Shown one piece after another: positions 33,327 to 37,085 of a DNA stretch of 64,000 nt. The position numbers were made by a program, and so were the translations under genes. Positions within the stretch are counted from its first letter, which is position 1. Every line of letters begins with the position of its first letter. Origin of the DNA: Pycnococcus provasolii (lineage: Eukaryota; Chlorophyta; Pseudoscourfieldiophyceae; Pseudoscourfieldiales; Pycnococcaceae); assembly GCA_938743325.2 (NCBI GenBank), contig OW568874.1, forward strand, positions 434,001 to 498,000, read 5' to 3'. The notes beneath the pieces are model-generated. The model was not told the DNA's origin, made no database searches, and saw nothing but the letters and a program-made list of their open reading frames with translations.

Positions 33327-34391
33327 ATGTCCATCCGTCGCATGTCAGATGGCGTGAAAGGCGCCCTCTATGGCTTGCTGATTGCCGACGCGCTTGCCAT
33401 GCCCACACACTGGTACTACGGGGGACCGCGTCAAGTCATCGCCTGCTACGGTGCGCCCATTCACACGTACGTCAAACCCTCTGAGAAACTCGCCGGATCC
33501 ATCATGAACAAGTCCGCGACGGGAGGGGGTGGGCGCGGCTCGTTTGGGGGGAGCGTGATCGGCGACGTCATCAACCACGGGAAGAAACACCTCTGGGACC
33601 CGAATGAGTCAAACCACTACCACTGCACGCTGAAAAAGGGTGAGAACACGCTCGAGGCGCAGCTCGTGCGCCTGCTCGTACGCACAATCGCGCAGAACCG
33701 AAAGTTTGATGCCAACACATTCAGAAACGAATACGTGTCTTTCATGACGACGCCGGGAACGCACAACGACGCGTACGCGTCAACCTGCCACCGCATGTTC
33801 TTTGCAAATGCCACGCGAGGTGTACCGCTCGAAGATTGCCCGGACAACGATAACCACAACGTCGACACCATCGACGGACTCGCGTTGCCGACGGTCGTCG
33901 CGCTTGCGTCGCTGCGGAGCATGTCACGTAGCGAAAGCGACCAAGCTGTTGCTCAGTGCGTTCGTGTGACGCGAAACTCAAAACCACTAGAGGCGGCGGC
34001 GGTGGCTTGGAATGGCGCGCTGCGCGCGGTGATAAACGACGGCATGCCAATGGGCGAGGCTGTGCAGCGTGCGTGCAGCGAAAGCAGAGAATTCAAGCAC
34101 GTCGCTGCGCCTGCAGGTGCTGGCAAGTTCGAGCCAATCGTGTCCTGATACTTGCCTCAGTCACTGCCGAGCGCTTTTGGCTTAGCAGTGGCATACGACG
34201 AAAAGTTTGAGGAGGGTGTTTTGGCAAATGCCAACTACGGCGGAGAGAATGTCCACAGAGGTATAGTCGTAGGTGCGCTATTAGGTGCACGCGTAGGGTA
34301 CAATAACCTGCCGTCGCACCTCGTTAGTGGGTTGGAGGCATCCGACGCGATTGCACGGGAGGTGGAAGACTTTGTCGCTAGTGTCGTCTAA
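33327..34391 (+). CDS. ADP-ribosylglycohydrolase/J1-crystallin family, probable selenoprotein J with in-frame TGA
   Basis: From the ATG at 33327 the protein would have 354 residues if TGA 34146-34148 (codon 274) is read as selenocysteine; otherwise it stops at 273. The N-terminus SDGVKGALYGLLIADALAMPTHWYYGG, the GGGGRGSFGG and GDVINHGKKHLW blocks, FMTTPGTHNDAYASTCHRMFF and NHNVDTIDGLALP match the ADP-ribosylglycohydrolase family in its J1-crystallin/SelJ branch. After the TGA the same frame continues for 80 codons with the family's conserved end: YLPQSLPSAFGLAVAYDEKF, LANANYGGENVHRG and VVGALLGARVG. As I recall the family, the TGA aligns with the Cys/Sec of the 'CYI-x-x-S-x-P' motif. Codon bias does not change across it. 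A sequencing error or young pseudogene is the alternative. The TGTAA at 34615 marks a plausible 3' end. Confidence 0.85.
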
Positions 34392-34751
34392 AGCTTGCTT
34401 ACTCCTCGTGTATAACAAGTACACATAATCGTGCTCTTGCTTCTGCAGGGCATGACGTCGTGGCTATCATCGTGCTTTGCAATGACTGTGATGGGCGCCA
34501 TGCAAAATAACCACCCGTGTGGTGTCCATGGCAAACTGCCCGGAGTCAATGTGCTTTTTACCCGCACCATCAAAGCAGAGAGGAAACGACGCAATCATGG
34601 TACTCATTTTTGCACTGTAACATATCCATAGTGAATCTATAACTTTCAGCTTCATCGGCGCGCATCTATGTAACGAACGGTGAGCGCGAATGGTGTGAAT
34701 GGACGACCGTTGGACGAAGTTAAACTCTATTACATTACTGAATGAGTGATT
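34392..34751. other. Convergent 3' regions of the SelJ-like and Trx-fusion genes
   Basis: This stretch holds the SECIS-like hairpin, TGTAA at 34615 for the plus-strand gene, and the reverse-strand TGTAA (ATTACATT at 34730) for the gene that ends at 34752. Short open frames have no conserved content. Confidence 0.5.
34484..34547 (+). promoter_or_regulatory. Candidate SECIS-like hairpin in the 3' UTR of the SelJ-like gene
   Basis: It lies 93-156 bases after the TAA stop and before the TGTAA signal. Features resembling a eukaryotic form II SECIS are GTGAT (34488-34492) facing GGAG (34542-34545), able to make tandem G-A pairs; GGGC/GCCC and GCCATG/CATGGC arms; an AAAA at 34504-34507 starting 12 bases after the TGA; and a small ACCAC/GTGGT apical helix. 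Against it are a five-base bulge in the 3' arm and a weak basal stem, so the fit is partial. Confidence 0.3.
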
Positions 34752-36887
34752 TTAGAGTTCGGCTTCACCGGCGCGCAACATGCTCTCGAATTTGTCGGCA
34801 TCTATGCCGGTGTGACGATGCACCTCAACGCCGTTGTGAAAGAGGCAGAAGGTTGGCGTGCGCGTAATCTTCAGTACGTCGCGGCACAAGTGCACTGTGC
34901 TAGAGTTTTCATTTCCATTCACACGTACGAAGCGGAACGCGTTGGAATCTGCATTCGGCACAAATTCGTCCTCTCCCTCTGACTCGCCGCTGCCGAGGTA
35001 TTGTGTCGCGTAGCGCTCGTACTTTCGCTCGAAGCTTTTGCACGGCCGGCAGAATGTCATTCCCACCTTCAGCACGGTGATGGGGGATTTGCTCTTGAAT
35101 GGCGAGTCCGTGCCTGCACCTGGCGCGTCGAATGCAGACGGCGCCTCACCCTTCTCGCCCTTCTCGAAGCGCACGCCGTTTTGATCTGCGCTCCATCCCA
35201 CGATCATGTTGAACTCCGCCTCCGACGTGATTAGTGTCACTGGGGCGTTCGTGATCTCGCTGTCCCAGAATTGGGCGAATGTGTCGAACGAGATCGCATT
35301 GCTAGGCCCACTGCCGAGCGCCAGAAGTGCCTTGGGTGGCGACGTCACGCCGATCGCCGCGAGACCATCCGTCAGCTCCTCTCGAGACAATAATCCGTCG
35401 CCGTTTATGTCCCACGAATCGAAGGCGGCGCGCAGACGGACCAAGTCCTTAAGGCTGTCAAGCTCAAGCACGTCGTTGGACGGCTCGTCGATAACCTGCG
35501 CTGGCGTGTCTCCGCCCGAAGAAACGGCTCCCTTGACCATCTCCTCCGCGGTTAGCGCACGAGGCTGGCCAGACGACTTCCCCTTTGATGCCGCGCCCTC
35601 GCTCGACGCGCGAATGGCTGCGCGCACCGCGTCTAATCCCGCAAGTGTGCGCGCCTCCACCGAAGCGGCGATGGCGGCACCTCTTACTATCGCACCCTCG
35701 GGTCGCGCGCCCGCCCTCACCACTGGCCGGCACGCGCCGAAGCGACCTGTGCAGAGCGCCGGCAGCAGCCTCTCGATGAGAAGCGAGTCTCTCACCGCAC
35801 CTCCCGTGGGCATGAGGATGAGCTCGTCAGGCCTCGCGACGTCGACGAGTCGCAGCAGGTAGTCGTCGATGAGGTGCACCCACGCAGCCCACGCGCGCAC
35901 GTCCGCAACCTGCACGCCGTCTCCCTGGTTGCTTTCATCGCACGGAACGGGCGGCACGAACGATGCCTGGCCAGGTTGGCTTGTCCACGCACCGGGGAAG
36001 CGCTCCTGCAGCTCGGCAAGGTCGCGTTCGTACGTGGCGGTGATATTTGTGTTCAAGCCGACGTTGCGCACGCGGTGCCCGTCGTTGTACAGCACGGCGC
36101 CCAGCGCGGCTCCGATGGTGCACATGAGAGTGAGCTTATTCGAGCTGCCGTCCTGCGACGGCGTAGGCGGCGTCTCACCTCCGTCTGTCTGCTGCGCACC
36201 CTCTCCGCCGACGAGCAGGTGCGTGTATCCAGCCGCCTCAGTGTGTATGACGGTGACAACGCGCCGGCAGTCTGGGAGGATGGTACGAATGATATTCCCC
36301 ACTTCTCTGTCCATGAAGTCGAACGACGGGCTGTTGACTCCAAGTCGGCGGCTGACCGCCTTGGTTATACTGCAACCGACCGGTCCCGTCCAGTTGTCGT
36401 ACTGCGCGGTAATCTTCTGCAGAGCGGCGAGCAGGTTATTTCTGAATTTTTCGCGTTCTTCCGGCGTGTCTTCGTGTTTGACGTCGTCGACCATGCCCTC
36501 GTAGTCGAGCGGCACGGATACGCCCGGCTTAAGAAATTCTCCGTTCGCGGGGTCGACGAGCGCGCCCTTGACGCTGTGCGACCTGATTTCGATGCCAAGC
36601 GTGGGTGCGTACTCGTCCATGGAGTTGAGCGCATCACGCGCAGATCCAGAGGCCACCCCAGAGGCCTCTGAGGCTAGGGCTCCCTGAGTAACTACCCGTA
36701 ACAAAGACAAAGACAAAGACCCTGAATTGGAAGCCAAGCCCCGAGAACGTGAGCCAACACAGGCAGCTAATGAATAACCACGGTGCCGCTGTGAACCACG
36801 CGCACCACGAACATGAACACGAACATGACGCGCACCCTGACCCTGACCCTGAGGTAACCCGGACAATAAGGTGGAATGCGGCGCCAT
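34752..36887 (-). CDS. Fusion: degenerate ROK/polyphosphate-glucokinase-like domain + EF-hand + thioredoxin
   Basis: The protein has 711 residues from the ATG at 36887 and a 75-residue basic, Ser/Gly-rich N-terminus that looks like a plastid transit peptide. Residues about 95-400 align with polyphosphate glucokinases of the ROK family: TLGIEIRSHSVKGALVD, DNWTGPVGCS, and RPDELILMPTGGAV near its end. Catalytic motifs are altered: the phosphate-1 loop reads IEIRSHSVKGA instead of IDIGGSGIKGA, the NDADAAG motif with the catalytic Asp reads IHTEAAG, and LGTGIG reads IGAALG, so it is probably not a sugar kinase. Next is an EF-hand (SWDINGDGLLSREEL, about 490), then a thioredoxin fold with the active site CRPC (Cys613, Cys616), MTFCRPCKSFERKY and a cis-Pro segment TRTPTFCLFHNG. 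The Ca2+ plus thioredoxin layout recalls algal calredoxin. Confidence 0.78.
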   Translation of the reverse strand: MAPHSTLLSGLPQGQGQGARHVRVHVRGARGSQRHRGYSLAACVGSRSRGLASNSGSLSLSLLRVVTQGALASEASGVASGSARDALNSMDEYAPTLGIEIRSHSVKGALVDPANGEFLKPGVSVPLDYEGMVDDVKHEDTPEEREKFRNNLLAALQKITAQYDNWTGPVGCSITKAVSRRLGVNSPSFDFMDREVGNIIRTILPDCRRVVTVIHTEAAGYTHLLVGGEGAQQTDGGETPPTPSQDGSSNKLTLMCTIGAALGAVLYNDGHRVRNVGLNTNITATYERDLAELQERFPGAWTSQPGQASFVPPVPCDESNQGDGVQVADVRAWAAWVHLIDDYLLRLVDVARPDELILMPTGGAVRDSLLIERLLPALCTGRFGACRPVVRAGARPEGAIVRGAAIAASVEARTLAGLDAVRAAIRASSEGAASKGKSSGQPRALTAEEMVKGAVSSGGDTPAQVIDEPSNDVLELDSLKDLVRLRAAFDSWDINGDGLLSREELTDGLAAIGVTSPPKALLALGSGPSNAISFDTFAQFWDSEITNAPVTLITSEAEFNMIVGWSADQNGVRFEKGEKGEAPSAFDAPGAGTDSPFKSKSPITVLKVGMTFCRPCKSFERKYERYATQYLGSGESEGEDEFVPNADSNAFRFVRVNGNENSSTVHLCRDVLKITRTPTFCLFHNGVEVHRHTGIDADKFESMLRAGEAEL

Positions 36888-37085
36888 GGAGATCAATGGA
36901 ATTTTTCAGATGAAGATGGGAATGAGAATGAGAAAAAAGGGAAGGGGGCGGAAAAGGAAAAAAGGGAAAAGGGGAAAAGATTGAAAAGATTGGCGGAAAA
37001 AAAAGGGACACACTCATCAAGCAGCACAGCGGCAGATCTAGGCTTAGGCTTAGTTTAGTGCAGGGGGAGAGATAGCCTCTGTTCG

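Follow-up and report, generated by a model that had tools for sequence, protein, structure and literature searches.

The gene at positions 33327-34391 (+) of the window, i.e. the whole analyzed stretch of 64,000 nucleotides, can with high confidence be regarded as a selenoprotein gene with selenocysteine (Sec) at codon 274, whose product represents an algal subfamily of the ADP-ribosylglycohydrolase fold, most likely has a non-classical function, and is probably a sister of fish SelJ. The single-exon coding sequence comprises 354 amino acids, with TAA at 34389-34391, and its translation confirmed what a sequence-only reading had described: the sole interruption of the frame is TGA at 34146-34148 (+), codon 274, the putative Sec codon, which is followed by 80 further codons in the same frame up to TAA, and the family motifs named by that reading are found in this frame. 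The open frame alone is little proof, as open runs of at least 80 codons after TGA are common in the window (201 of 1807 TGA triplets, counted in any frame on both strands), which is G+C-rich, and as the GC3 value drops from 0.72 in the 273 codons before TGA to 0.56 in the 80 codons thereafter. The case for TGA as a putative Sec codon rests on protein conservation, rather than on the openness of the frame.

The assignment to the ADP-ribosylglycohydrolase family, which had been made from motifs, holds at the level of profiles: the PF03747 domain matches residues 12-331 (33360-34319, +) with an E-value of 1.2e-35 and 124 bits, the cut-off being 26.2, and the TGA lies inside the matched region. 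Two protein searches, with the best 120 of 846 entries taken from the first and the best 120 of 1486 from the second, together yielded 213 distinct relatives. When these were aligned jointly with P0001, Cys occupied the TGA column in 119, while 91 ended there, two were gapped and one ended at residue 252, which means that Cys is the sole residue type wherever a relative has a residue at this column. This bears out the earlier placement of the TGA at a Cys/Sec position. The 91 relatives that end at the column, among them those from Coccolithus braarudii (P0071) and Effrenium voratum (P0195), do so at residue 273 in 87 cases and are placed at 272 in the other four, three of which still have the ...VS end of the family, while P0206 is truly one residue short; as this protein stands beside the Cys protein P0022 in the tree, it may be a fragment. 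Since the second search was carried out with six shortened proteins as query, the fraction of shortened relatives is a biased frequency, and what counts is their identical end point rather than their share. Judged by such protein ends (91 of 213, with the second search favoring shortened ones), Sec-type members are probably common among the relatives. On a 137-row tree of the N-terminal part, from which P0210, P0211, P0212 and near-copies of >72% identity had been removed and in which the Sec label was set on 92 rows including P0206, the distribution of Sec-type and Cys members requires 9 changes by a quick method, as compared to 44-46 when shuffled, and Sec-type rows sit on deep algal branches.

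The Cys form of the family is found in the alga itself, as the genome search yielded just one further PF03747 match, a paralogue with Cys (TGC) in the TGA column, and the same form is found in bacteria. There, 34 of 36 loci (L017-L052, from Deltaproteobacteria in the wide sense, Verrucomicrobiota and one Planctomycetia) have Cys (TGC or TGT) at the column, and the other two stop short of it. In the aligned rows, these bacterial Cys relatives share HYH...GENT, FMTTPG, CY[VIL] and GG[DE]N...RG with the algal protein, but they have a Cys codon where the alga has TGA. One copy from a Desulfatiglandales MAG (L027, 1501-2448) has a TAA at match residue 141, away from the Cys/Sec column, and is probably broken. 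Two scans of viral contigs did not find relatives of the algal protein.

The sequence-only reading had called the protein SelJ, and in this respect its residue stands, whereas membership in animal SelJ does not follow from the trees and their marginal tests. Algal residue 274 corresponds to residue 262 of fish P0223 by BLASTP, by hhalign (98.3% probability) and by L-INS-i, and both proteins have the same fold family and the same Sec column (SCGLPGSF in fish, SUYLPQSL in the alga). Fish SelJ proteins were retrieved with a probe sequence, and among the best 120 of 269 relatives, 44 stop at the Sec column (with ends such as ...FPNT and ...TNT), 14 have Cys before GLPG, a letter that may stand for Sec as the tools used pass Sec on as Cys, and the remaining entries are mostly altered around the column. 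Public fish SelJ entries (P0216, P0225, P0229 and others) often have altered residues where Sec is expected, which probably reflects gene models that leave out the Sec codon. Fish SelJ differs from the algal protein in having YGDQ and GGCTCSR in place of HYH...GENT and GGENVHRG, and in clustering with a different set of bacterial Cys proteins.

What alternatives exist for a sister relationship with separate Sec gains? The algal protein could be a true orthologue of animal SelJ, with one ancestral Sec-containing SelJ in algae and fish, and with secondary Cys in bacteria and diatoms. The shared Sec column found by three methods, the naming of algal members as SELENOJ by Jiang et al. (PMC7539508) and the low number of only 9 changes between Sec and Cys in the N-terminal tree, whose deep algal branches carry Sec-type rows, would agree with a common origin, which we nevertheless consider rather unlikely, since two bacterial Cys groups lie between the algal and the fish clades. 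In a tree of 61 rows, fish SelJ groups with J1-like Cys proteins of bacteria (99/92) and the algal proteins with a bacterial Cys group of their own (100/98). The fish rows of this tree were misaligned near the Sec column, and the analysis was therefore repeated with full-length rows in two row sets, both of which gave the algal/fish split with 100/99; the joining of fish and J1-like proteins was weaker in the first set (83/53). AU tests of a single clade of algal proteins and fish SelJ gave p-values of 0.0438 for the first and 0.0267 for the second full-length set, and 0.0533 for the first set with the paralogue added; these tests are marginal, the grouping had been suggested by a first tree before it was tested, and the fish SelJ branch is long. 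Bacterial paralogues, 14 classical and J1-like ones, had been prepared, of which L090 was dropped from the 61-row and first full-length trees because of a wrong frame, and L091-L093 from the first full-length tree because of the longest branches. In the second full-length tree, nine of the ten fish rows are entries without Cys or Sec at the column. The animal side of these trees consisted of fish SelJ rather than cnidarian J1-crystallins, and grouping with animal SelJ/J1-crystallins is thus judged by the fish proteins. As the algal proteins join one bacterial Cys group and fish SelJ another, the trees suggest that algae and fish gained Sec separately, and the algal protein would then probably be a sister subfamily to fish SelJ that recruited Sec at the same residue.

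With regard to function, DraG/ARH hydrolases (2woc, 3g9d, 1t5j) are by profile of the same fold family as the algal protein, but they have TDD and GGDTDT where the alga has GEN and GGENVH. The motif HYH...GENT (residues 97-110; 33615-33656, +) aligns with the place of the classical ARH metal-ligand motif TDD, and GGENVHRG (residues 305-312; 34239-34262, +) with that of GGDTDT, whose second Asp, which we take to be the bridging Asp, is replaced by Val. The classical bacterial rows L070 and L071 have TDD or SDD in addition to GGDTDT, and in the alignment the algal protein thus lacks the two-metal motifs of active ARH/DraG enzymes. Tyr275, directly after Sec274, aligns in a profile alignment with Tyr217 of chain 2woc, which with a chain offset of 5 is presumably Tyr212 of R. 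rubrum DraG, so that alga and DraG have a Tyr at the adenine-stacking position in common. The five classical rows that entered the first full-length tree have no Cys at the Sec column. In characterized ARH enzymes, a two-metal centre has been described, with Asp316 as bridging residue in human ARH3, and Tyr212 of R. rubrum DraG stacks on adenine (PMC7050489). As the neighboring Tyr275 aligns with this adenine-stacking residue, Sec274 would border an ADP-ribose-type cleft, and as the canonical metal motifs are altered, an ordinary ADP-ribosyl hydrolysis by the algal protein is doubtful. Our best guess from these residues is that selenol/thiol chemistry, or a selenol-assisted binding, takes place in the ADP-ribose-like cleft.

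The altered metal ligands would also fit a crystallin-like protein with a structural role, whose selenol takes no part in catalysis. Such a role has reportedly been proposed for fish SelJ by Castellano et al. in 2005. For the algal protein it appears quite improbable, as it is hard to explain why bacterial, algal and fish members alike should have Cys or Sec at the column, and why there should be so many Sec-type ends among algae. The fact that the Cys/Sec column is common to bacteria, algae and fish and adjoins an ADP-ribose cleft residue rather argues for SelJ-like proteins being enzymes, beyond lens crystallins only. A more far-reaching reading, which we put forward tentatively, is that the algal "SelJ" constitutes a separate, old selenoenzyme family, in which Sec was gained independently at the fish residue, the selenol is catalytic in a nucleotide cleft, and the two-metal centre of this cleft was lost.

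Decoding of the TGA as Sec needs suitable machinery, and three of the components that the sequence-only reading had named for a check, tRNA-Sec, EFSec and SPS, have counterparts in the genome. Profile searches in 32.3 Mb on 46 contigs found a tRNA-Sec with the anticodon TCA (69.5 bits, cut-off 47), SepSecS, the eEFSec domain euk_SelB_III, and SelD. Moreover, four of five GPX matches and both Rdx matches in the genome contain an in-frame TGA, giving six other TGA genes in the alga (the GPX-type and Rdx-type loci L008, L009, L010, L012, L013 and L014), and in an early scan SECIS-like elements passed the filter 3' of L008, L009, L010 and L012. This suggests an active selenoproteome. Together with the conserved column and the domain that extends across the TGA, the machinery supports the reading of residue 274 as Sec, and it is very likely that this UGA is decoded in such a way.

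That the host is a green alga had been proposed along with the gene, and it is in line with the comparison of three of its light-harvesting proteins, out of 51 light-harvesting matches in the genome, with PDB entries. One of them is nearest to CP29 chains. The LHCA-type protein of L055 (1501-1980, -) has its best PDB match in LHCI-11 of 9vfj (234.8 bits), a 1048-residue chain with several matched stretches, and ordinary LHCA chains follow at 181 bits. For one protein, chains of 7yca and 9uc6 score 240-254 bits, as compared to 102 bits for the next entry, 7yca presumably being the complex of Ostreococcus tauri that contains prasinophyte Lhcp. These matches make a prasinophyte-grade green alga the likely host. 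Contig C31 carries twelve light-harvesting genes on both strands, which form two clusters (133072-142609 and 360395-366434) and have identical scores of 92.2 bits.

The weak link in the selenoprotein case is the SECIS element. A candidate of form 2, held with moderate confidence, lies at 34480-34554 (+) and consists of a GTGA core, an AA, a ministem and a 3' GGA. The TGA of the core, at 34489-34491, begins 98 nt beyond the end of the stop codon, the AA follows 12 nt past the core inside a run of four A, the GA of the 3' GGA is at 34543-34544, and the enforced helix II has an energy of -19.9 kcal/mol. The two first SECIS scans found no element here, though they found elements for other TGA genes; the candidate surfaced only when the closing helix was enforced, with a stricter filter applied next, and the later filters, looser and strict, were chosen after the candidate had been seen. 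With the strict filter, there is a match here, at three of the six other TGA genes, at none of the two Cys controls, and at five other places within the 128 kb of strand scanned, while 8 of 2000 shuffles give any match and one of 2000 a match as stable as the candidate. With the looser filter, one of the two Cys controls (L011) matches as well (-18.4), and the 128 kb of strand yield 78 passing sites, of which 21 reach -18 or better. When folded without constraints, the site favors another helix (z of the stretch as a whole, -2.19), and the SECIS fold of the candidate costs 5.4 kcal/mol more than the best fold, as compared to 0.3-2.4 in the elements of four other genes. In closeness to the best fold, the candidate nevertheless ranks first within 34301-35700. 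A rival site at 35182 has a stabler inner helix (-23.8), but it was rejected, with a TTGA core and CC, and with a fold that lies further from the best one (7.3). The Rfam model SECIS_1 gave no match at the locus (E up to 10) and none genome-wide, and is uninformative here, as it also misses the GPX and Rdx TGA genes of this genome. On balance, the element at 34480-34554 has a somewhat better than even chance of being the SECIS of this gene.

The expected 3' UTR is limited by a convergent neighbor, an ORF at 34752-36896 (-) with EF-hand-like and weak thioredoxin-like matches, the latter (PF00085, E 0.0012) being below the cut-off and near the C-terminal end. The neighbor is a possible redox partner, with no claim of a functional link.

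The moderate SECIS evidence, the lower GC3 after the TGA and the use of TGA as a stop in most genes are all points that would fit a real stop, with translation ending at codon 273 and a decaying remainder. Such a pseudogene is very improbable, because the mean identity to the 120 relatives that reach residue 331 is the same upstream (0.520) and downstream (0.523) of the TGA, because all relatives that have a residue at the TGA column have Cys in this place, because relatives end at the same residue, and because the genome has Sec machinery. Splicing is unnecessary as an explanation, and an excision of the TGA was rejected, since the read-through frame aligns without gap with the Cys relatives at this point. 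An assembly error, with base 34148 really being C or T and the gene encoding Cys, would suit the exclusive presence of Cys among relatives with a residue at the column, but hardly deserves credence, as P0002 (98% identical, from a separate record with ENA as source) has its protein end at the same residue, and P0003 (66% identical), P0048, P0071, P0116 and P0123 end there too.

We thus favor a selenoprotein in which UGA at codon 274 would be translated as Sec by tRNA-Sec and eEFSec, directed by a putative SECIS in the 3' UTR. The product would be an ADP-ribosylglycohydrolase-fold protein of an algal subfamily with Cys or, presumably, Sec at one column, which precedes the Tyr that aligns with the adenine-stacking Tyr of DraG, in the context of altered two-metal motifs. 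It would function by selenol/thiol chemistry or selenol-assisted binding rather than by metal-dependent hydrolysis, and it would make use of the same residue as fish SelJ, probably as a sister subfamily with its own Sec gain.

This kind of gene is already known, as Sec-containing algal SELENOJ has been in print since 2020: Jiang et al. described Sec-containing SELENOJ and Cys homologues in algae, named SELENOJ as one of the least widespread Sec families, and reported two Sec residues in the Alexandrium tamarense protein, the first of which is shared with several algae and animals (PMC7539508). Going by these descriptions, which are the basis of the comparison, the algal SELENOJ proteins likely belong to the same family as the protein described here, with which they have the Sec and the existence of algal Cys homologues in common. 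The passages of PMC7539508 on SELENOJ give no split into subfamilies, the main text of an Archaeplastida survey, as far as covered, has no mention of SelJ or SELENOJ (PMC6627142), and the distribution of SelJ in animals has been treated elsewhere (PMC3316567, PMC3473315). In the literature searched, we found no prior report of the green-algal gene with its context, of the breadth of Sec-type ends, of bacterial Cys relatives on both the algal and the fish side, or of Sec having likely arisen separately from that of fish SelJ.

The gene thus adds a well-supported green-algal member to a Sec-containing family, other members of which are concealed in databases by gene models that are cut at the TGA. 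If Sec arose twice at this site, the family would be a clean case of selenium being recruited in parallel. If also the tentative reading of a separate selenoenzyme family is true, there would be a new chemistry on the ADP-ribosylhydrolase fold, which selenium has improved in two lineages in parallel. With the Cys/Sec column, the family offers a single residue for functional testing.
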